From Branchiostoma lanceolatum (Eukaryota; Chordata; Leptocardii; Amphioxiformes; Branchiostomatidae), in the NCBI RefSeq assembly GCF_035083965.1, contig NC_089724.1, positions 13,758,910 through 13,822,909 on the forward strand: 64,000 nucleotides of DNA, read 5' to 3'. Below are positions 6,530 to 63,528 of this stretch, piece by piece. The translations under genes and the position numbers were made by a program. Position 1 is the first letter of the stretch. Each line of letters begins with the position of its first letter. Under the pieces are notes generated by a model, which did no database searches, had not been told where the DNA came from, and saw only the letters and a program-made list of their open reading frames with translations.

Positions 6530-9500
6530 ATGGAGGAAATTTCACTTCCGCCCGGCCTACTGACGTCACGCGCTAAAAGGATGGCCCAGAATATCTTCTC
6601 GCTGTGTGACGTAGACGACAAGGGTTTCATTACTATGAGAGACCTGGAGATCGCTCTATCAGAATACAGCGAACTGTGCCTCACTCCGGAGCAGGTCGAG
6701 TACGTCTTCAGCCTCCTGGACACCCAGCGGTCAGGCAGGCTGCACCGCGACCAGTTTGTGTCGGCGTTCGAGCGCTTTTTGATGATAGATCACAGCCAGA
6801 TGATGCTGGGCACAGGCAACATGGAGGATGGGCTGGACGAGATGTACGAGTCCCAGACGCCGCCCGTGTCTCCGGACATACTCACGCTGCAGGCTGAATG
6901 GGACTCCTTCCTCAGAAGCGTCGGAGGGAACGTATTGCTGGAGGGGTGAGTCACTCTCGCATTCCTAATGAGATAGAAGCTGAATGATGGCACGGTACGA
7001 ATGCGGCACAAGACCTATAATAAGCCTCGCGTTTTTACCGCCACCTCCCGAGGGTGTGCCCCCACCTACCGCTGATGTTTGCACTGCAAATGAGATCTGT
7101 ATGGCTTAGGTGTAGGCGTTGGCAGTTTGTTTGGGTTTCCAGCTGTCATCTTCAAGTAGTTTTCTTAAGAAACGCTGGATACAGCTGGTACATTTCCTTA
7201 AGTACTTGATGGATGTAGGTTTAGAGGGTACTTAATTTCAGCTTCAGATGACGTTTAAAGGTAAGTAAACCAATTTAGGGAAGATCCTAGATGATCGCAG
7301 GAAAACACAGTTTTTTAATGGCATATCTGTCATCATATCCACTTTACTTTCAAACTGAAATTGTACTGTATTGTAGTCCAATGCCAACTAGCACCAAGAC
7401 TGCCAGCGCAGCAGTTTGTATGATGTATTATAATTAGCCCTGCCATGTATTGTGCTGATAATGTCCGCAGAGGTCACAACGGCTTTGTCTCGGGGTAATG
7501 GAAAATTTCTAGGTACGAGACAGAAAGATGAGTGATATACTGTTTTAATCAAAGCACACCCATTGCCACCCTAGGCTGAACCAGAGACACCAGACACCAT
7601 TAATAAAAGTGGCCCTATATCTAATAAAGAAAATACATGAAAACCATTAATGCAGCGAGGTCAATAACGCACTGTAATGCATAACCTGGGCCAAGGCCAC
7701 ATAAATGACAAAAGCTATCCATACAAAAACATTGCACAGGATAATTACTCTTTGAAGAAAGTGTGTGTCATGCTTCATCACGGAAAAAAATGAGACAATT
7801 AACGGGTCACTCCTGCCCTGTTTGGTGCAGCTACAGCACATTTCCGGTTCAAATGAGTATCATCAATAATACTTGTGGCCTCGATTGAGCTATAATAACT
7901 ACACAGGTGTGTTGTAGGAAAGGTTATTCTGTACATGTGGGTTCCCAATATGCAGGGATGAATAAATATCGTTCGGTAAGGACGCCCTCAAGTAAGTTTG
8001 CCGACCGTATCTTTTTCATTTTTCTATCAGGACTCTTAGATTTTTTAGACGGGGAATAAGACTAAATAGTCACATTTCAGCTAGGAATGCATCCAAAAGA
8101 CAGTCACCCTACAAGGAGACCGTCATTTGATAACGAACAGTCTTTGGCTCGCATTGCACAGGCGTCCCTGAGATCCTAATCTGTATTTCAGTCACCCACA
8201 TGACCAAAGGGATATAAGCTTATTAGTAAGGACATTTCCTTCATTATTCCACGCTGGATCCTGGCGTCAGTTGTACGGTATCAGAGGGATGAAACGTGCC
8301 GAGATTTCAAACAAAGTCCGGGCACATCAAGTTCCATCAGCTCCAGATTACCAACCGGGAGACGATGTTTAGACATGGCTGCAAAGGTCAACATGTGGAG
8401 GGCTGTATTGACTGACCGGCCAGACAGCCGCGCTTATTGAGATTTGAATAGCAATTCCATGATACTCCATCAGCCTGATTGGTCATCACTTTTTACGTCT
8501 CCTCACAACTGAAAACATGGGTGATTCTTTTTACATCGATAGGAAAAATAATTACATTTATGTACTCGCAATTGTCTGTGTTTTGTATGTACATGTGTTT
8601 CTGCGTGATCCGCTTAGATCTGTGTTGAAAACATCCTACAGATCTATGCATTACGTCACGTGTCCTATGGGGCCGTTTTACCCCGATGGGGTGTAGTTTA
8701 TTGTTATAATCCTCCTCTTGGGACCATTACCAACACATTTAGATTATGAAAGGTGTGGCTCACGTGAAAAAAATGTATTAGTCAAAAGCATTCGCAGCTC
8801 TAAATAACGAAAAATATTCTACTTAATTTTCATACTGCAAAACCTTTAAAAAGTGAACATCTAGCGTGATGTACAGAATCGATCTTGCTTCACGGCCGGC
8901 ATAATTGAAGAGAACGCCAGTCCACGGGGACCGCCGGAGGCTACTGTTGGTTCAGCGGTGCATAATGTATTGTGACGGGCTCACGGGGCACTAGCGTTAC
9001 CTCACAGGTCAGGTCAATGGGGTAATAGATGGCTTTTCATGGGAAAACCATTACAATTGGGACCATCGAAATAGCTCCTTTTAAGAAGCAAGTATGCCTT
9101 TGAAGCATTTTCAACCGACCGGTTCAAATCTAATTTGTGGAAGGTTCTTTCCATGAACGGAACACAAAGCCGTTTTCATGAAACTCTGACAAACCGCGCA
9201 CCTACCCACTAAACAGGTTAACAAACTCGCGGAGAGGAGACGTGTATGTAATGATGGATATGTTCGTTACATAAGAATTTGTGCCCCTGAACATCTTTCA
9301 GTGGTAAACGAATTACTGTGGGCTCCCCATACACATTACATGAGATTTTCTTCGTATCTTTTTTGCCTTTGATATATTCTTTTCCTTCAAAAGTTGACAT
9401 GACGTGCCCTCTGGGCATACGGATGGCGAAGAGCTATCATCTTTAGAAAAATCTTACCGGCTACGAAACCACTGAGGCGGAAACTTCAACAATCATATCA

Positions 9501-24500: not shown

Positions 24501-27500
24501 CAGCACTCCACTCCTAGCTTGTAAAAGCCCATTTGTCCATTTCTGACGTAAACGTGAGGTGGGTTTGGTCAGAACAGGCCGCCAGACGGTGCTTAGCTCG
24601 CACGAACCTGAACTTAGTATTGATTTCCACTAAATCCATTTTGCCAGCCCCTCAGGGCCATTAGGGAGCGAAACGTGGAGTGCTGTGTTTCTTATGCTAT
24701 GGCAATTGGACGGAAACGGTTTAACGAAAAACCCCATTTACACCTAATTACCCACCGTAAAAGACTATTTCTTTAAAGTAATATCCCATGGCATGTGATG
24801 TACAATGTCACTCCTTCCGCGCTTGTAGATCGAATGAAATACCTTGGATCAGTAGCTAGAACCAAACCACAAAAATTGCTTTATACTCATTTCTATTTGG
24901 TGAAATTTGCATCTGTAATACTGTAAATGTTGCAATTTTCGCTGTGGTTTAATGTCCGTGGTTTTTGCGGTGAACTTAAAACCACCGCGAAGAAGGCTTG
25001 TTCAGTCCTCTACCCGCCTACTCATTTTGTTTCAACCGCGAATTTAAAACCACTGGAACGCTCCATATGCATTTTCTACCTATCACGATAATCAAATCAC
25101 CGCGAACTTCAATGTTGTTGCAGTAACATTGGCTTTTAGGAACATTGCCTACGTCTCCTCCCACAGCAGCTTGCCCTGTGTGCACTCTGACTTGTTAATG
25201 GTGTTCCAGGTTCCGCAGCATCCCGAACTCGTACTTCAGAAAGGTGGACGGGGTCATGCTGCTCTACGACTTGACGTGCGAGGAATCCTTCAAGAACGTC
25301 AATAACTGGATGCAGGACATTCAGACCGGGGTAGGGGGCGTTCGTTTTGTGCACATTATTTGAGGAACCGTACAATGCGACAGTCAGATTCTGCCACCTA
25401 GTTGGTTGAAGTCACCACAGAATATTGTTATGTTTCGCCAACGAAACATATTGTTTTTGTCAGGTTTCTTCTTCTTCTTCTTCTCCTTCTTCTTCTTCTT
25501 CTCCTGTCAAATCTTCAAATCGCTTCTTCTCGGTCGTCCGTCGACCAAATTAGCTGAAATTTGGTATGGAGGTAGAGTTTGTGTATACCCCTAGACCCTT
25601 TTAAAAATTTTTCCATATAAGTTTTTTAAATGATTTTATCGAGGTTTTTTGGTCATTTTCCGACAAAAGTCGCACATTATGGCCTCCAGTGCCGTGGTGT
25701 TAAAACCTAAGGACCTGAAATTTGGTTTAGTTGTGCATTGGATATTTACCCAAAGGACCCCATAATTTTTTTGGGTATACACTACTTCAAAATGATTTAT
25801 TTTGCAATTTTTTGATGGAACTTTTGGTTATTTTCTCACAACTAGGTCATCTTGTAACATAAGCCCTCCTACACTTCCCCCAAGTCTGGGAGTTAAAACC
25901 AAGCAGATGTCAGGGGGTACCTCTACTAATGGTATTACAGAAAGTTATATGTACCTTATGTTACATGGTACGGATGTTATATTTGAGATGTAGGTACCTA
26001 TAGGAAAGGTGAATAAACCTGACAATTAATTATGCTAATGAGGACCTAATTTGCATAATGTATGCATAATGTTGTATGTCCCTTACCGTAAAAGCTGCGG
26101 ATGTCATCTTTGAGATGTAGGTACCTTTAGGAAAGACGAACACACCTGGCCATAAATTATGCTAATGACGACCTCATTTACATGATTTATGCGTAAACTT
26201 GTAATTCCCTTACCGGAAAAGCTGCAGATGTCAGATTTGAGATGTACGTACCGTTAGCAAAGGTGATCACATCTGGCCATGAATTATGCTAATGAGGACC
26301 TCATTTGCATATTTCATGCATAAACTTGTATTTCCCTTACCGTGAAAGCTGCGGATGTCATCTTTAAGATGTAGGTACCATTAGGAAAGGTGAATTCCCC
26401 TGGCCAAAAATTATGCTAATGAGGACCTCCTTTGCATAATTCATGCAGAAACTTGTATTTCCCTTACCGTACAAGCTGCAGATGTCATATTTGAGATGTA
26501 GGTAGCTTTAGGAAAGGTGCACACGCCTGGCCATGACATATGCTAATGAGGACCTCACTTGCATAATTTATGCATGATGTTGTATTCCCCTTACTGTAAA
26601 AGCTGCGGATGTCATCTTGAATATGTAGGTACATGTAGGAAAGGTGAAAGCACCTGGACATAACTTATGCTCATGAGGACCTCATTTGCATAAATTATGC
26701 AGGAACTTGGATTTGCCCAGGAGTTATTTTGGGACAGCCCACTTCTTGCATGAGGAGTATGGGCGAAACATCCTGAATTTGCTCTTAAAGCAAATGACGG
26801 CCAGTCTAGTTTACATGAGTTAATTTTCAAGCTCACGTGAAGGTTGGCTACATTTGCATTATATCAAAGTATGCTGCAAAATGAATTATCGTACAGAGAA
26901 GTTGTGATTTGCCCTCAGTTCCAACCCGTAGAATGCGGGCGCCCTCCAGGTTACAGATAATGGGGGTACGCTGTCTAGCCGATTTGACTTTGCAATATAA
27001 CACGGGTTTAGTAGGATTAGGTTCCATTTTAGGCAGTACAGTTCAGTAAAATCTGTGAAATGATCGCATTTAAAGTGCGGTCGTAAAACGCAAACATGAC
27101 CGTGAGATTTTCAAATTAATGACGCTGAACTTTGCAATGCGGGCTTTTAGCAGACCTGTAATCATGTTCCGATCTCCCTGTGTGAATTTACCACGCGGTG
27201 ACAGGAAGTAAGATTAGTCGGAGCTGTATATTCCTGTTCTGTAGTAAATGTCGAGGCTTGTTGTCAACATCGTATTTCAAATTAGAGTGGCTTTGTACTG
27301 TGACTCGAATACTGATAGACTGTAGCTGATACGCATAGATCAAGTTGGCGTCCTAACTCTGAATACCTTTGATGAATAGAAACGTCGTATGTTTCTTTGC
27401 TTACAATATGCATGTCTATATTGTTTGTGTATTTTGTTAAGATCATGATAAAAAATGACTGGGATTAGTTATTTACATCGTTATCTGTATAAATCTTCTA

Positions 27501-31746: not shown

Positions 31747-42843
<11,097 letters not shown>

Positions 42844-45800: not shown

Positions 45801-48655
45801 GGGAGAACAACAGGACGGACAGGTGAGGGCGGCTCCGGCTCCGCGGAGTTGGTAGGTGAGGCGTCTCCTGGGAGTAAAGCAGAGGAGACTCCACCTGAGC
45901 ACACAGTACTACTGCTGTTTGATAACTTGCTCGTTTTTGTAGCCTTCTTTGCAGTTTTTTTTATTTTAATTCATTGATAGTTTGTGTCGCGTAAGCTCGT
46001 TTGACGGTGCCCTTTGTGTATGATATCATGTTTTTATGAGTGCGGGCCTAAACATGATGATGCCGTGGGCGGGGGTGCCTGGGGCTGCTGAGTCGTTAGT
46101 CTTACATATACAATGTATTTCTATCTATTCAACATATGTTGTTGCCGCTACAAAAGTACAGGGTACTTGGCTGGGTGCGTGAGCGGCTTCCTTGCCACAT
46201 TTTTTCACAGTACTAGTTCTCTTTCTCTTTCTTTTTACAGGGATGCACATTGCACGGCTGAGGCGAACATACATGAGTAGTTTCCTCAGGCAACTGAAAA
46301 GACAGTGCTGAGAAACAATATTTTCTGAACAGATTATTGTGCTATGTGACACTAAACTCTTTGGTACATGCATTTGCCACACTGCAGGGTCCCTGACGTG
46401 CCGCCTGAAACGAGAGCTGACATTTTCCCGCGGTCGGGTACTGTGTCCTTCCATCATAGTGTGTTTCTAAACGTCACCATGATACAGGACACAGCCCCTG
46501 ACTGCGGGACCAAGCACGGCCGTGGTGAACCCTTCTGTGGTGAGTTTAAATAAGCGCATACACACAAGCAAACACAGACACGTACATGTGACTCCACACA
46601 GTACCGATTTCATGGCATGTCAATTATTCAGTTGCAATTGGTTTATTTCCAAACAATTGCTACATTTTCCCAAGGACTTAGTCCTATCAAAATCTACAAA
46701 ATAACGATAACGCTGCTCTGCTGAAAAGCATTTTCATGAACTCTATAAGACGGTGTTACTTTGCTATCCATTGTAGTTGCTATGGTAACACAATGGCCTG
46801 CGTCATAGCGTCAAAAAAAAGCGTAGCAGCGCTCGAACAAAGAGTCTTTCATTAGCAAAACGCCTCTGAGGTTATTGCACGATTGACACAAGTAGAATAG
46901 ATCAAGTTTACGTCATATTATTTTTTCATGTGCCCCCATTTCATTTCTTGGGCGAATGGAAGTGGACAGCTACTTCTAGTTTCCTAGGTCGCCTGGATCC
47001 TTGAGTGTACTTTTTGTCTCCTGTCTTAGACACAATTTATCTTGCATTATATTTTTGTTCGTTAACATTGGTTCCAACACAGGTTTTCCTATATCTACAT
47101 ATGTTTTCCGATAAAAAGATACAAAAAAAATTGTACAAACAACAGAATAGCAAACGGTGCATTGTCGCCATGAATATTTCCTTACATCACATGGAGTAAC
47201 CAGATCGATTGACGTAACGAACGCATCCTGTGTTTCCACGGCAACCACTCACCAAACGGCAGCGCTGCAGACAATTAGCACGCCTTCTTGTGTCGGAGAT
47301 CTGTACATTGTGCGCGTAACGAAACCAAGAAAGAACGTGTACATCCTGAAGGAAATAATGGCTTGTCGGTGATTACAAGTCGTTGAATAGATTTGTATAG
47401 AGCTAGCGCACTGACAGTTTGATCATTTTTCTTAATACACTGACAGCCCCTCAAGAACAGCTGGAATGGGATAATCACTCGGCATGGCAATGTGCGTGGT
47501 GTTTCTAGATCACAAGGTCGCGGGTTCGAATCACGGTGTAATCTCTGGTCTCCATTTGCACACCACTAAAGGTAGAAATTAAAGTCCATCCAATGAAAAT
47601 GTACAGTACTTTAAGCCAAATATCACGTGTTTCAATCTCGTTTAAGAATCCACAACACATCTTGAGAGAATGGCTCTTGTGCAACATGTGCAACCACAAT
47701 AAAGAATTGAATTGAGCCATGATGTATTGCCAAAAAATGAGAAAAACATCCACGTATACACACACGTATACAATACAGGCCATGAGTATGCCAAACAACA
47801 TGAATGCACCCCCCCCCCCAAGAAACCGTCAATTTGATATGTATGTCCACTAAGCAAATTTCCATTGCTCCACTTTGCTCTAAAAGAGATATTAGCGATA
47901 ATTTTTCAACAGCTTCTTAATACAATGACTCGCTTAGTTTTCTTTGTCCGTTTAATACCAGTTTATGATGAACATTTGCTCTTTAGTAAAAAGAATCCCT
48001 CAAGTTAATAAAATTCAATACAACAATGCCCCCTCACAGAACAAAACAAGACGGTTATACGCCCTTTTGGTATTTACATAATCATAAATACGTGGTGTGT
48101 TTGCGTACATTTATACATGTAATCTTCATGGAAACATTCTAGCTCTACATGAATTATACAAACCGCTTGAAATTGGTCCTACTCGACATCATCATGAAAG
48201 AAGAAAACTCGCAGATTATTTCCCATCGTTGTTGCAACATTTTTGTCATAATGAATTGCAAATACGTCTGAGAACCAGTCATAGCTTCGTAGTGATTTAA
48301 CACGTTGCTGTGTTTCATATCAAATAACGTCACTTGTTGAGACGGATTTACGTAAGTGTGTACAGGACTACCTGTGTTTTATTAGACATTTTACTTTTTA
48401 TTTTTATCTTTTCGAAACAATCATATACTGCCAGGTCCGCAGTACTCCGCTTACACATTGTACACCTACGTATATACAAATAACTACTTATAGTAATAAC
48501 AAAATAAAGTAAGTTACCTATTCGTCAATAACAAGGGAACACAACCAATAGTAGCTTTCCTATTTATCCATCTATGTTTCCCCCTGGAAGTGTAACTAAC
48601 TTAGCATTGTTTGCAACATTACTCGACATCGTATGATTTCTGGCTTCTCAGAATG
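42844..48655. other. Intergenic region between receptor cyclase and aminotransferase-like gene
   Basis: This 5.8 kb lies upstream of the cyclase and downstream of the aminotransferase-like gene, both on the minus strand, so it should hold the cyclase promoter. No coding exons are supported. A C/G-rich, CpG-dense stretch at about 45740-45905 is a candidate promoter or untranslated exon. Reverse-complement AATAAA signals at 48378-48383 and 48397-48402 could end the aminotransferase-like transcript. GATA microsatellite near 44555-44580, a C-run near 47810 and a SINE-like head near 47485 are present. Confidence 0.5.
47485..47560 (+). mobile_element. tRNA-derived SINE head (A and B boxes)
   Basis: TGGCAATGTGCGTGG at 47485-47499 resembles a polymerase III A box and GGTTCGAATC at 47523-47532 is a good B box, at tRNA-like spacing with GATCACAAGGTCGCG between them. 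The flanks do not pair as a tRNA acceptor stem, so a SINE head is more likely than a functional tRNA gene. The 3' end of the element is not clear. Confidence 0.45.
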
Positions 48656-51600
48656 TCAAAGATCGTCACCGTCTTCTTCCTGGTCGTCGCCTTGGACAAA
48701 AGACTGCAACTCCTTCTCCCTAGAAAATAAAGTATAGTCATATCATTTATGGAAAACTATTCTCGTGGTTTATCAACTACAGGAACAGCGGTTAACACAA
48801 AAGCTAACTCTGCTTCCTCTGTCCAAGCTCACCCACTTAAGCTAAAAGGACAATAGTCATTCCTTCACAACTTGAAATATAGTGATGCCGTTTTTATGGT
48901 GAAAGTTTCAGAGAAAAAGATCCATGTAAAAGTTACCATCTCTGTCTCCTGTTTGTGTCATTCAGTGTCCTTGATACTACAAGGGCGCCATGTTGGGGAG
49001 GGTTTCCCCACATTGGAGCAGCCATGTAGACCAAATGACTGGACACAGTAAGCCAGGCACTGTCGTCTGACGTCACCACAAACAGACACCCGACACCGTC
49101 GTCTGGAAAATAATGTTATACGGGCGATCTGACTGTCTGTCCTGTTTATAGGTCATCAACTTGCAGGTTACAAATTTTACATTTACATGTATCATACACT
49201 AGTGGCAAGGTTTATCAAATGGATTGATATCATCCATTAAGTACTTTTATCTGAAGACCGCTTGATTCAATTGGTTCACACAGACTTTAATAAAACAGTT
49301 ATGATATCCCCACAGCCTGCCACAACCCCCAACAGGCACCTCTCTACAGCTTTTTAGGTCTGAGCGAGTGAGCGTGAGGAATGATTGTGACGCTTATGAA
49401 TAAATCAATTTCTTCCTACAAATACTCACTCTGTACAAAAGCATACACTGTTTGACGCATGATAGAAAAGGGTGCTTTGGGAAGAAATCAAACCAAGCAA
49501 ACCAATGCAATATAAAGAAAGAAAAACTTATAACTGTTACACAAAGTATTACAGAGAAATGAATGACACCTCTACCCATCCCCAAACCAGCACACTAGTT
49601 CTGGCGGACAACATGGCCAAATAAATCACAGCTATAACGACACGACATTTTGAGATTTTGTAAATTTTTGTTTTATCTTGTTTCATTGATACAAATAAGG
49701 TCGTAATTAGTATAATCTCTTTCAATTGAAGGTCCTCTCTACCCAAGTGACATGCGTTGTATATGTGAAAGTTCTATATTTTGTAATATTTATAATATTT
49801 CAATTGTAAGATAACATTACGGCATAACATGGGCAATAAACTAGCAGAATATTTTTTCTTGCTTTTTTTAGTTTTTCTCGTATTTCTTAACTCGTGGACA
49901 AATTTTCTTATATTAAGAATTTACTTCAAGAACGAATAAGAAAGAAAAATTGGTAACAGTAATGTGGTGCGATGATAAGATACGGGAGCGTAGTCACAAA
50001 TGGTTGGTCCCTTAAGGTAGTTGCCATGTGGCACACCTGGAACTAGCCAGTTCAATCTTAAGTTTATCACTCCGACGCAGGCATTAGTTCTGGCTGGTTA
50101 GGAAAAGGGGGAATCTCATTTTTCAACGAATAGACGACAATTCAGGTACAATTCAGGTACCAATTTACCGCAAACACTTTGTGTCCTTCCTCAAATAATC
50201 TCGTAGAAAGATACTTTCTTTTTTATCCTCTCGCTCGTCAGATTTGGGAGCCTCCTGACAATGCCAAACCTGTATGACTGCAAGATAAAGTCCCTTTGCA
50301 GCAACACATTGGTATACCGGTTGCAATGTTACTCCTACTTCCACTACTTACCGCGGAGCCCAAACTGCCTGGAGAGCGACACGGCCACAAACATCTCCAC
50401 TCCCCTGTCCGTTAGGGACCGGATCACACCGGCGTCTCCCTCCACCGACCCCGACATGAGGCCCAGGCCGCCCGCTAGCACGAACGGGAACAGGTTTCTT
50501 TCCTTTGAAAAAATCAAAATAAAATAAAACTTATTTCTGTTATGAGAAAAGTTTACAGCGTGCATCGAACTTAATGATAATGGGACATGGAAAGAAAACA
50601 GAATTAGCTGAAGCAGAGACGTCTATTCAAATACATAATATACACTTACTTACTTTACATATACACGCATTTAACAAAACTGTCAAGCAATCAAAAAGAT
50701 ATGACTGTAGCAGCAAAAGTTTTTTGTTGTCGTTTTCATTACGTCATTTAGACTTTCAATTCTTGACATCTGCACCGTGCTAGTTGCCACTCCGCAAGGT
50801 GGCGTAACTAAACTGTGCCTTACCATGATTATGTCGACCATCCTCTGTATAGGTTTAGTCGAGATGCTGTCAGCTTCAAATACGGCAACCGAACCTACAG
50901 GGAAACTCTGGCGAAATGTTTTCGATAGTTATCCTGATTGGCAAAATATCTGAGTTGTAAGTGATGAGTCATAGGGAGGGAAAGAACAGCATAGATCTTT
51001 TAAACTATACAAGTTAGAACTTACACGTCCAGCTTACGAAAAAGAGCAAATGAGTTTATTGCTGACCATGGAAACTTTTCTACATGTCAAAATTTGACAA
51101 TTACTCTTAAGATTCTCACCATTGCTACATCTACTACGAGTTAGACCACTAGATTCACATGTTGTTACCTTCAGTGTCTCAATCAAGTCACTTGCGCCTG
51201 ACGAGTTGAGTTCGTGACTGTTGTTGTAATACCGGACATCACCGAAGGACGCCGCTTTAAACACGCCATCATATAAATCTGCAGAAAACAAAACAAACAC
51301 ATACGATCAAGATAGTGAAGCATCGATTTGAATTGTTGGTGAGTTACTTGTTAACAAAAAGGATAGTGAATCTCTGATTGCCTTGTTCTAAGTAGGTCGC
51401 TACGCTATCCGGTCCGTGATGCCTGCACATGCAAAGCACCTCATTAGTCGTCATTGTTCTCCTCGCTTCTTACCATTGTTTCAAGCTTATATCTTACAGA
51501 GACTGCATATTAGATATTACAAATGTTTGCGACAGACCCCGACTATAGACTCCGTACCTGCTGACGCCCTGGGTAACACCACAGTGTTCAGTCGGAGCTG

Positions 51601-52679
51601 TCTGTGTAAGAAGTCCGCCCCCAGCCGGACAGCACCAGTCTGTCCTATAGTCTGGAAACAACCAATCTGAAAAGTGGGATACCATTAAACCACTGATCAC
51701 TTTAGTTTTTAAGTAGTCGCATTACGAAACCGAAGAAAACTCTACATTTTACTTTGTCACTGGATGTGCTAGTGACGTATCCTATTTCATTGAAGAGAAA
51801 CATGATATGGTCTATATTTCTGTCATAAAAACATTTTACAGATATGTATGGCGGTATTCTGCTTCAGAAATCTGATATTTGACAGCGATTCTAATATCGC
51901 ATCGTTTTTCTGACTTAGTAGTTCTGTGGTATCATATTTTCCATCTCGATTATTTCTAACTGGTAGGTACAAATTATCCAAGAGAGTCTTCTCAATGTCT
52001 TGACACCTTATTCTCAAAAACGACACCACAGTTATCGCCGAAGACCAGACATGTCGCAGCCGAGGTAAACTCTGGTAGGCCGGGGACTGGGATGTACTCG
52101 TGATTGACAGCTTCGTCGGACGAGATTTCCCTCAAAACGTTCTTGACGACTTCAGGAGTCCAGGATGCCAAATCTGTGGTCCTTACTGTAGAATGAAATG
52201 CACAACAACAACAACAAAAATCTAATTTTGAAAAATGGGACCTTTCTTTTCTGTTCTATGTTACCTAGTGCTACAACAGGGTCTTGCCTTCCAATTCCAT
52301 AAATGGTTTTAGCTGAAAGTAGGCTCAAGTCATTCACAGTAACATTGTTATTGGGGGAAAGGTCGGTGATGCTAGATCACCTACTTGTACATTTACTTAC
52401 CCGGAGACCTGGGAACAGGAGGCAAACTTTGGAAGCGTGATGTCGTCACCAGTGGACGAACTTTTCTGGAACGCAAAGAAAACAGTTGGAAACAAGCTCT
52501 CTACCACTAAAAACTTATGACTGTAGCATGTCCAGAATACGAGATATCAAAACCGGAAGTTCCGCTGCAGTACCTTGGAAAGCCGGTAGGAGGTCAAATA
52601 TCGAAATTGACCTTCGTTTTCTCAACCCCTACCAACCGTTCTGCCAAATATCCATGTACAGCCTCTTGAGCCATGCGAT

Positions 52680-52731
<52 letters not shown>

Positions 52732-52834
52732 AAGTTGATGTGATTCTAAACTGATGTACTAACAAATAAAGAGAATATGATGTCAAACAAGCACACCTTA
52801 TTTTGACTGCGTCTCTTGAACAAATGTTTCCCAT
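48656..52834 (-). CDS. Cytosolic aspartate-aminotransferase-like pseudoenzyme (9 exons)
   Basis: Exons in transcript order: 52797-52834, 52401-52465, 52007-52185, 51558-51666, 51169-51278, 50824-50907, 50352-50502, 48937-49102, 48656-48719; phases agree and give 321 residues. Family features of GOT1 are clear: NHEYIPVPGLPEF (62-74), FQTIGQTGAVRLGADFL, NLFPF (198-202), VSLSRQFGL (236-244) and WGNPPQHGALVVSRTL. But the cofactor lysine (GOT1 SFSKNFG) is Arg240, the Asp that pairs with the pyridoxal ring (PFFDSA) is Leu204, and the HNPTG and PTW segments are missing. It stops after an acidic tail (DDQEEDGDDL), about 90-100 residues short of GOT1, so the substrate-binding C-terminal domain is absent. 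Clean splice sites and frame argue against a dead pseudogene. The first two exons are less sure; the third onward are firm. GOT1L1 is the nearest vertebrate analogue I can think of, but orthology is open. A non-catalytic role, perhaps as a binding partner, is inference only. Confidence 0.85.
52555..52735. repeat. Interspersed repeat copy followed by (CA)n microsatellite
   Basis: CTGCAGTACCTTGGAAAGCC and the following ATTGACCTTCGTTTTCTCAA-type sequence match the 152-bp units at 13090-13550. It ends in a CA run of about 48 bp (52682-52729). It lies in the first intron of the aminotransferase-like gene. Confidence 0.8.
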
Positions 52835-54222
52835 CCTGTCCAGAAGTCAGGTCATAACATTAAAAGCTTGTGGGTATATTCCACCAGGGGCTACTGTTGG
52901 CGAGTGGTTCTGGTTTTGTGATTCTTTGCAAGTAAATTTTGCACTTGTTGCTCTAGTTTCCTCACAGTTAAAGTAACGTTATGTTTGGTATCCATGGACG
53001 ATACAAATAAAAGAAAAGCAACAGAGACAGCAAACTGCAAATGTACTAGGTGTGTATTTAATTTCGGGTCGACGCCACAGAGAAAGCACTTCATCATTCC
53101 ACCACGCAAAACAAAAAGAAAGAACATCCTTTGCGTTACATTCATGGCCCACTTGTAGAACAAATTGCCAATTTTCCCCATACGCATTCATCAAGGAAGA
53201 ACAAATAGTTTAATCCTCTGTAATTATGGACTTAGATCTCTTCCATAAAAGCTTGGTGGTAAATACGACGTCTATTCTTTTGAATGGCAGTGCCTACCCA
53301 GGGTTCTTGAGAACGTTTTGGAACTATCTTTCACATGACAACACGCATAAGCAAACATTGCATGTCTTTTGTGTGTTACTCTCGTCTTGGATTATTGATC
53401 ATTCACTATATGAATGAGCTGTGGGGATTAGCTGTGTTATGCTGTATATGCCTGCCACTTTCATGTTGTTCTGGTGTGAAGATTGTAAATACTTCATTTG
53501 GCTTTCGCTTTATGAAGTAATCTGGATTATTTAAATTGACGTACAAAGTACAAATTAACGAATTCTCCTGATGAATAGTAACACACCCCTGATGGAATGC
53601 CCTAATGTCGCAGCATTTCTAACAAAACAGAGTATTTACCTGTTATATTAGAGACGCATCTTATGCTTTTGGCAACTCAGTACGCAGTCAATAAAGATCA
53701 ACGTTATGTAGACCTTAGATACAAAAATAGGTAAAATCCTACATAGTGTGTCTACACAGGTGGAATTGGATGTGTCCAAGTGAACGAACAAAATTTGGGT
53801 TAACGTGAAAGGCTCTTGTTATGGATTAGTCCACAAACGATTGACTTTTAAAGTCTTAAGAACAGATAATTACAAATGTGAGTGGTTTCCCCATGCCCCG
53901 CTGTGTTGCCACTGGTAACTCAAACGAAAACACCGCGCCAAAGGACACAGGCTTGTTATATGTTGGTCCCAGGTTAGTAGTCCGCAGCCGTATGTCTGTA
54001 ACGTTATCTGTAAGAAGTTAGAGAATTTTGGAAGGTGGGTCTTGTGATTTGTGACATCCTACTATCTATAGTACAATTGAGTAGCCTGCATTTGTCAGAT
54101 GTTCGGGTGATTCGGTGATTGACTGATTGGCTGCATGATTTGTTTACAGTTTTACTATTTCTTTATCAGTTTATTTATTGATTGATTGAGTTTTAACAAT
54201 ATTTCACAGCACAAACTTGACG
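52835..54222. other. Divergent intergenic region, possible shared promoter
   Basis: The aminotransferase-like gene (minus) and the ABC transporter gene (plus) start 1.4 kb apart and read away from each other, so this stretch may carry both promoters. I see no TATA box at a convincing distance and no coding exon. An open frame on the minus strand at 52891-53187 has a charged end (KLEQQVQNLL) but no splice support. Confidence 0.4.

Positions 54223-63528
<9,306 letters not shown>

Follow-up and report, generated by a model that had tools for sequence, protein, structure and literature searches.

The window (the whole 64-kb stretch of Branchiostoma lanceolatum DNA that was analyzed) was found to carry on its minus strand a gene related to aspartate aminotransferase, hereafter the GOT-like gene. 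By joining of exons, nine exons running from 52834 to 48656 were assembled into a frame of 321 amino acids and a TGA stop codon, with no internal stops. All eight introns were bounded by GT and AG and the phases agreed at all eight junctions, in keeping with the first-pass annotation, which had described a nine-exon frame with consistent phases. The start codon in exon 1 is flanked by A at -3 and by G at +4. The exons and the other features of the window are listed in Table 1.

Ten neighbouring open pieces were scanned against Pfam, and seven matched a model and three did not. The EF-hand and Ras/Rab exons possibly belong to one EF-hand/coiled-coil/Rab gene, which would be RASEF- or CRACR2A-like. 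From the matches to guanylate cyclase, kinase and ANF receptor models on the minus strand, we infer a membrane guanylate cyclase receptor gene, in the region of which two minisatellites are located. The plus strand from about 54225 to 62000 is a probable ABC transporter, presumably ABCC4/MRP-like. Its start, placed by eye at about 54225, is head-to-head with the GOT-like gene, with the two starts about 1.4 kb apart. These genes, taken together, point to an animal genome.

Table 1. Exons of the GOT-like gene and other features of the window (residue ranges are those of pig GOT1; E values are for matches to the large-domain profile unless stated otherwise).
Feature	Position	Strand	Observation
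Exon 1	52797..52834	-	start codon; MGNICSRDAVKI; GT donor
Exon 2	52401..52465	-	basic/proline linker; good splice sites; phase 2 in, 1 out
Exon 3	52007..52185	-	pig 40-99; NHEY; start of large domain; own match, E 9.6e-11
Exon 4	51558..51666	-	pig 100-141; GADFL kept, PTW lost; own match, E 1.5e-4
Exon 5	51169..51278	-	pig 141-178, by spliced-protein alignment; no own profile match
Exon 6	50824..50907	-	pig 179-213, by spliced-protein alignment; no own profile match
Exon 7	50352..50502	-	pig 214-264; own match, E 6.6e-8
Exon 8	48937..49102	-	pig 264-319; WGNPP kept; own match, E 3.1e-10
Exon 9	48656..48719	-	WEKELQSF opens the linking helix; homology to about 6jpk residue 323; acidic tail QGDDQEEDGDDL and TGA follow
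Two AATAAA polyadenylation-like signals	48378..48402	-	pattern search; about 250-280 bases 3' of the stop; use not implied
AC repeat	52682-52729		perfect, 24 copies, within intron 1 of the GOT-like gene
Open frame	52894-53187	-	98 aa; lies immediately 5' of exon 1 of the GOT-like gene; no match in Pfam
EF-hand exon	6530-6946	+	Pfam
Ras/Rab exon	25199-25360	+	Pfam
Guanylate cyclase, kinase and ANF receptor pieces	33098-41398	-	Pfam
Minisatellite	39096-39498		period 43/127, 9.4 and 3.1 copies
Minisatellite	40888-41206		period 107, 3.0 copies
Two ABC_membrane pieces	55-62 kb	+	Pfam, below curated cut-off (E 0.0013, 0.00094)

The exons differ in what supports them. Four of the nine (exons 3, 4, 7 and 8) match the large-domain profile unaided, exons 5, 6 and the start of exon 9 are supported by alignment of the spliced protein, and the support for exons 1 and 2 is confined to splice sites, phase and start context. 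Exon 1 is without homology and has an intron-like GC content (0.37); exon 2 did not clearly resemble the N-terminal arm or the small-domain segment of GOT1, and the N-terminal small-domain profile did not match it. The protein starts with MGNICS (52815-52834, minus strand), in which G2 and S6 fit the N-myristoylation pattern and a Cys is nearby, hinting at membrane anchoring provided that exon 1 is correct.

The spliced protein was compared to known families. Its top phmmer matches among solved structures were cytosolic aspartate aminotransferases (5tor, E 1.4e-41, residues 35-306), as judged from the best 60 of the 81 distinct sequences matched; the mouse GOT1L1 chain 9ijj_4R was matched at E 2.4e-33 and the Pfam family PF00155 at E 7.7e-14. 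Over pig residues 40-322, the protein was 34.8% identical to human GOT1; the values for mouse GOT1L1, mouse GOT2 and the yeast enzyme were 28.4%, 27.1% and 23.8%, respectively. Homology to the large domain of the aspartate aminotransferases (GOT1/GOT2, EC 2.6.1.1) was thus evident, and the NHEY, GADFL and WGNPP landmarks named in the first-pass annotation are all present. A four-residue gap after GADFL was considered as a GOT1L1 trait and dropped, as GOT2 has the same gap. A scan of viral contigs for relatives gave three pattern matches, none of which was confirmed. By title and start of abstract, no paper linking aspartate aminotransferase with amphioxus dealt with the GOT-like gene, and no paper linked GOT1L1 with Branchiostoma, within a coverage that mostly excludes subscription papers.

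The active site was analyzed by reference to the cofactor and substrate residues listed for the Schizosaccharomyces pombe aspartate aminotransferase in PMC6715241: Tyr70, Ser107, Gly108, Thr109, Arg263, Asn191, Asp219, Tyr222, Lys255, Arg289 and Arg383, of which the last seven correspond by alignment (offset 3) to 266, 194, 222, 225, 258, 292 and 386 in the pig numbering used here. Only three of the 11 match vertebrate GOT1 (Tyr70, Thr109 and, at 107, the Gly of vertebrate GOT1). The other eight are lost. The Schiff-base lysine (258) is replaced by Arg240 (AGG, 50368-50370), Asp222 by Leu204 (codon 50476-50478) and Tyr225 by Gly207, all in exon 7; Arg266 is replaced by Gly248 and Arg292 by Ala274 in exon 8; position 108 is Gln, Asn194 falls in a gapped stretch and is Asp, and Arg386 is absent. 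The Arg and Leu at the lysine and aspartate columns, as well as the loss of the PTW and HNPTG segments, had been pointed out from the DNA letters and were upheld by alignment and codon reading. The column of Trp140, which is described as stacking on the cofactor (PMC6135512), is Ala130 in exon 4, and the stretch of exon 6 from which HNPTG is absent is seven residues shorter than in GOT1. Losses beyond that earlier list are the small domain, Arg266, Arg292 and Tyr225. Of the phosphate cup, Tyr70, Thr109 and Ser255 are still present. As AGG is one base from the Lys codon AAG, the loss of the lysine alone could be due to sequencing or to an allele; the other losses could not. No lysine was restored in the other two frames of exon 7, one of which has stops and the other of which is unrelated.

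The first-pass annotation had described the active site as dismantled; evidence that it was specifically targeted is weak. Enzyme-invariant columns were kept at 4 of 17 active-site positions compared to 27 of 61 others (Fisher p = 0.16), using a list of 23 active-site positions, 17 of which fall on invariant columns of the range. The same test gave 6/17 compared to 41/61 for mouse GOT1L1 (nominal p = 0.025) and 7/17 compared to 36/61 for a human GOT1L1 row not taken from a database (p = 0.27). The idea that neofunctionalization had left its mark as preferential loss of the active site was rejected, since the concentration of losses there was not significant.

The small domain of the S. pombe enzyme is given as residues 16-47 plus 323-409 (PMC6715241), and chain 6jpk, whose numbering agrees, was taken to be that enzyme. 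Homology of the GOT-like protein to 6jpk extends from about residue 40 to about residue 323, with domain borders at 48 (Trp43 of the GOT-like protein, in exon 3) and 322/323. The large-domain profile was matched with an E value of 1.5e-53 over positions 1-261 of 266. By contrast, the N-terminal small-domain profile gave E 0.12 for the protein and 0.53 for the best stretch, residues 163-184, which does not lie where the domain should be. No match was given by the C-terminal small-domain profile, and exon 9 is without the C-terminal small domain. The GOT-like protein, therefore, lacks the small domain of an aspartate aminotransferase. Both halves of this discontinuous domain seem, from the predicted protein, to have been lost from the gene, and because the ends of homology fall near the domain borders, the loss appears to have been domain-wise.

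Whether selection has kept the frame was examined by simulation. When human GOT1 was decayed neutrally to 35, 45 and 55% identity, none of 300 copies was stop-free at any level (minima of 4, 3 and 2 stops), and four further neutral settings at 35% likewise gave none of 300 each (minima of 2, 3, 1 and 1 stops); the simulations were without indels and are thus a mild test. At the sites where it differs, the GOT-like protein has a mean BLOSUM62 score of -0.48, a value attained in the four settings by 1, 3, 0 and 1 of 300 neutral copies and by 9 of 2000 sets of shuffled residues; its replacements thus respect the fold better than neutral change does. Its hydropathy correlation was reached by 0, 11, 3 and 18 of 300 copies, a weak result in the two settings with 11 and 18. 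Taken together, these results indicate that selection held the frame and, partly, the fold for much of the history of the gene. Past selection on the frame does not prove present function. The GOT-like protein keeps 31 of 78 enzyme-invariant, 27 of 67 moderately variable and 21 of 74 least conserved columns, compared to 47, 30 and 24 for mouse GOT1L1. The invariant columns are kept no better than the moderately variable, and the constraints of the enzyme are gone. The gene is open and an essential catalytic residue is lost, as in pseudoenzymes.

These data bear on a paralogue that was long functional (perhaps GOT1L1-like) and is now decaying, with expression or splicing already lost and a stop not yet arisen. 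Such decay would be consistent with the suboptimal acceptors of exons 6 and 7 (a pyrimidine fraction of 0.56 in the former, AAG in the latter), with enzyme-invariant columns not being preferentially kept, with a very long branch in the tree (2.26) and with a GC3 of 0.58, at the low end compared to three neighbouring exons (0.59, 0.75 and 0.81). The truncated C terminus also fits, as C-terminal truncation is a common first step of gene decay. We nonetheless regard ongoing decay as rather unlikely, given 321 codons without an internal stop, GT-AG borders at every intron, a GC content of 0.53 in exons compared to 0.37 in introns, and a loss that matches domain borders.

A less probable account is that the small domain is missing only through a fault of the gene model or assembly, the real gene or another allele being more complete. 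Exons 1 and 2 and the acidic tail are without homology, a single sequence was seen, and intron 7 is 1249 bases in length. However, the window has no runs of N, and when both small-domain profiles were searched against its 1691 open segments of at least 25 aa (a length limit that a very short exon could escape), none matched at E <1, the lowest E values being 1.2 (at 62.7 kb) and, on the opposite strand, 1.9. Nothing credible was found among the tblastn matches listed for terminal GOT pieces. Such a fault would also leave the losses of Asp222, Tyr225, Lys258, Arg266 and Arg292, which lie inside the independently matching exons 7 and 8. We thus consider this account improbable.

A still-active enzyme of changed chemistry (e.g., PLP-independent or racemase-like, with a remodelled pocket) is very improbable: the remaining phosphate-cup residues would suit it, and GOT1L1 was once claimed to be an aspartate racemase and displayed significant L-aspartate aminotransferase activity when made in HEK293T cells (PMC4282708), but Lys258, Asp222, Tyr225, Arg266, Arg292 and Arg386 have been replaced or lost, the small domain that would close the site is lacking, and the same source describes the racemase activity as not reproduced.

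The relation of the GOT-like protein to GOT1L1 was examined by use of a tree of ten rows, including the human GOT1L1 row. The tree grouped the GOT-like protein with GOT1L1 (support 83/93), with a warning of joined long branches. The grouping was retained without the human row (87/93) and fell to 40/53 without the active-site columns. In topology tests, joining of the GOT-like protein to GOT1 instead (AU p 0.118) or a group of GOT1 and GOT1L1 without it (p 0.123) was not rejected, and joining to GOT2 or to the fungal enzymes was rejected (p 0.008 each). Orthology to GOT1L1 was, therefore, set aside as not robust by tree. Residues shared exclusively numbered five with both GOT1L1 rows, five with three GOT1 rows, six with two GOT2 rows and nine with the mouse GOT1L1 row alone. 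As there is no excess of GOT1L1-only residues, convergence may account for the losses that the two have in common, including the change to Gly at 266. Human GOT1L1 neighbours were compared by eye to the genes recognised in the window, a comparison short of a proper synteny test, and no shared neighbour was seen. On the predicted protein, we call the GOT-like protein a pseudoenzyme of the GOT1/GOT1L1 group.

Apart from the GOT-like protein itself, the only degenerate GOT relative for which database letters were compared was mouse GOT1L1 (9ijj chain 4R). Both proteins have lost Trp140, Tyr225, Arg292 and HNPTG, both have Gly for Arg266, and in both SLS precedes the lysine column. By contrast, mouse GOT1L1 has an entire small domain and keeps Lys258, Asp222 and Arg386, all of which are missing from the GOT-like protein, and retains six of the 11 listed residues (70, 107, 194, 222, 258 and 386) compared to three. 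Thus, the suggestion that the lancelet protein is more degraded than GOT1L1 held against the mouse protein. The identity of mouse GOT1L1 to the GOT-like protein is below that of human GOT1. GOT1 resembles the GOT-like protein in large-domain sequence and is its best match among the solved structures listed, yet is a full enzyme that possesses the small domain as well as the 11 residues of the list, or their equivalents in GOT1.

The explanation that we favor, with some confidence, is an open and probably functional gene for a GOT1-family pseudoenzyme that is reduced to the large (dimer-forming) domain and serves as a non-catalytic scaffold. The first-pass view that the product is not a normal aminotransferase is supported by Arg240 at the lysine column, the loss of eight of 11 residues and the loss of the small domain. 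A protein of this sequence would be incapable of Schiff base formation, and the holding of PLP or substrate would very likely be lost. It may instead act through contacts with other proteins, serving as a docking subunit or scaffold that is either homodimeric or paired with GOT1; a scaffold role fits the retention of the dimer-forming domain with loss of the small domain and the chemistry. The sequence shows the structure of the gene, its homology, the losses of residues and of a domain, and a frame that has long survived. We infer the folding, loss of PLP binding, dimerization, scaffold role and axonemal location of the GOT-like protein, the last being a lead by analogy only.

This analogy is to GOT1L1, the closest degenerate relative, which would suggest a structural role, perhaps in the axoneme of sperm or cilia. 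A cryo-ET study of the mouse sperm central apparatus tentatively modelled GOT1L1 around SPEF2 in the C1b projection, an assignment that the authors call uncertain. Mouse Got1l1 RNA is reported in spermatocytes and sperm (PMC4282708), and expression of GOT1L1 in bacteria is described as giving little soluble protein (PMC9283133). Because activity has been reported for GOT1L1 and its axonemal assignment is uncertain, a purely structural GOT1L1 is not a safe model for the GOT-like protein. Other PLP-family proteins without the catalytic lysine are SPTLC1, AZIN1, AZIN2, PDXDC1 and mouse Ldc1, of which SPTLC1 is modelled in heterodimers with SPTLC2 or SPTLC3 (PMC11016064). These resemble the GOT-like protein in being descendants of PLP enzymes that have no lysine. 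Partner roles are known in this set beyond the SPTLC heterodimers, and none of the five is known to belong to the GOT family.

A more specific form of the scaffold reading, which we regard as doubtful, is that GOT1L1 has its invertebrate-chordate orthologue in this gene, the product of which would be a scaffold, made of the large domain only, in the central apparatus of cilia or sperm. If true, an aspartate aminotransferase became an axonemal building block before the vertebrates, and mammalian GOT1L1 would be a half-way stage that has the old lysine. Were the GOT-like protein a counterpart of GOT1L1, a relative incapable of catalysis would favor the structural role in the argument of racemase versus axoneme. 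The point of interest is that a whole domain was lost together with the chemistry, and a bare large domain kept in frame would provide a natural test of its non-catalytic roles.
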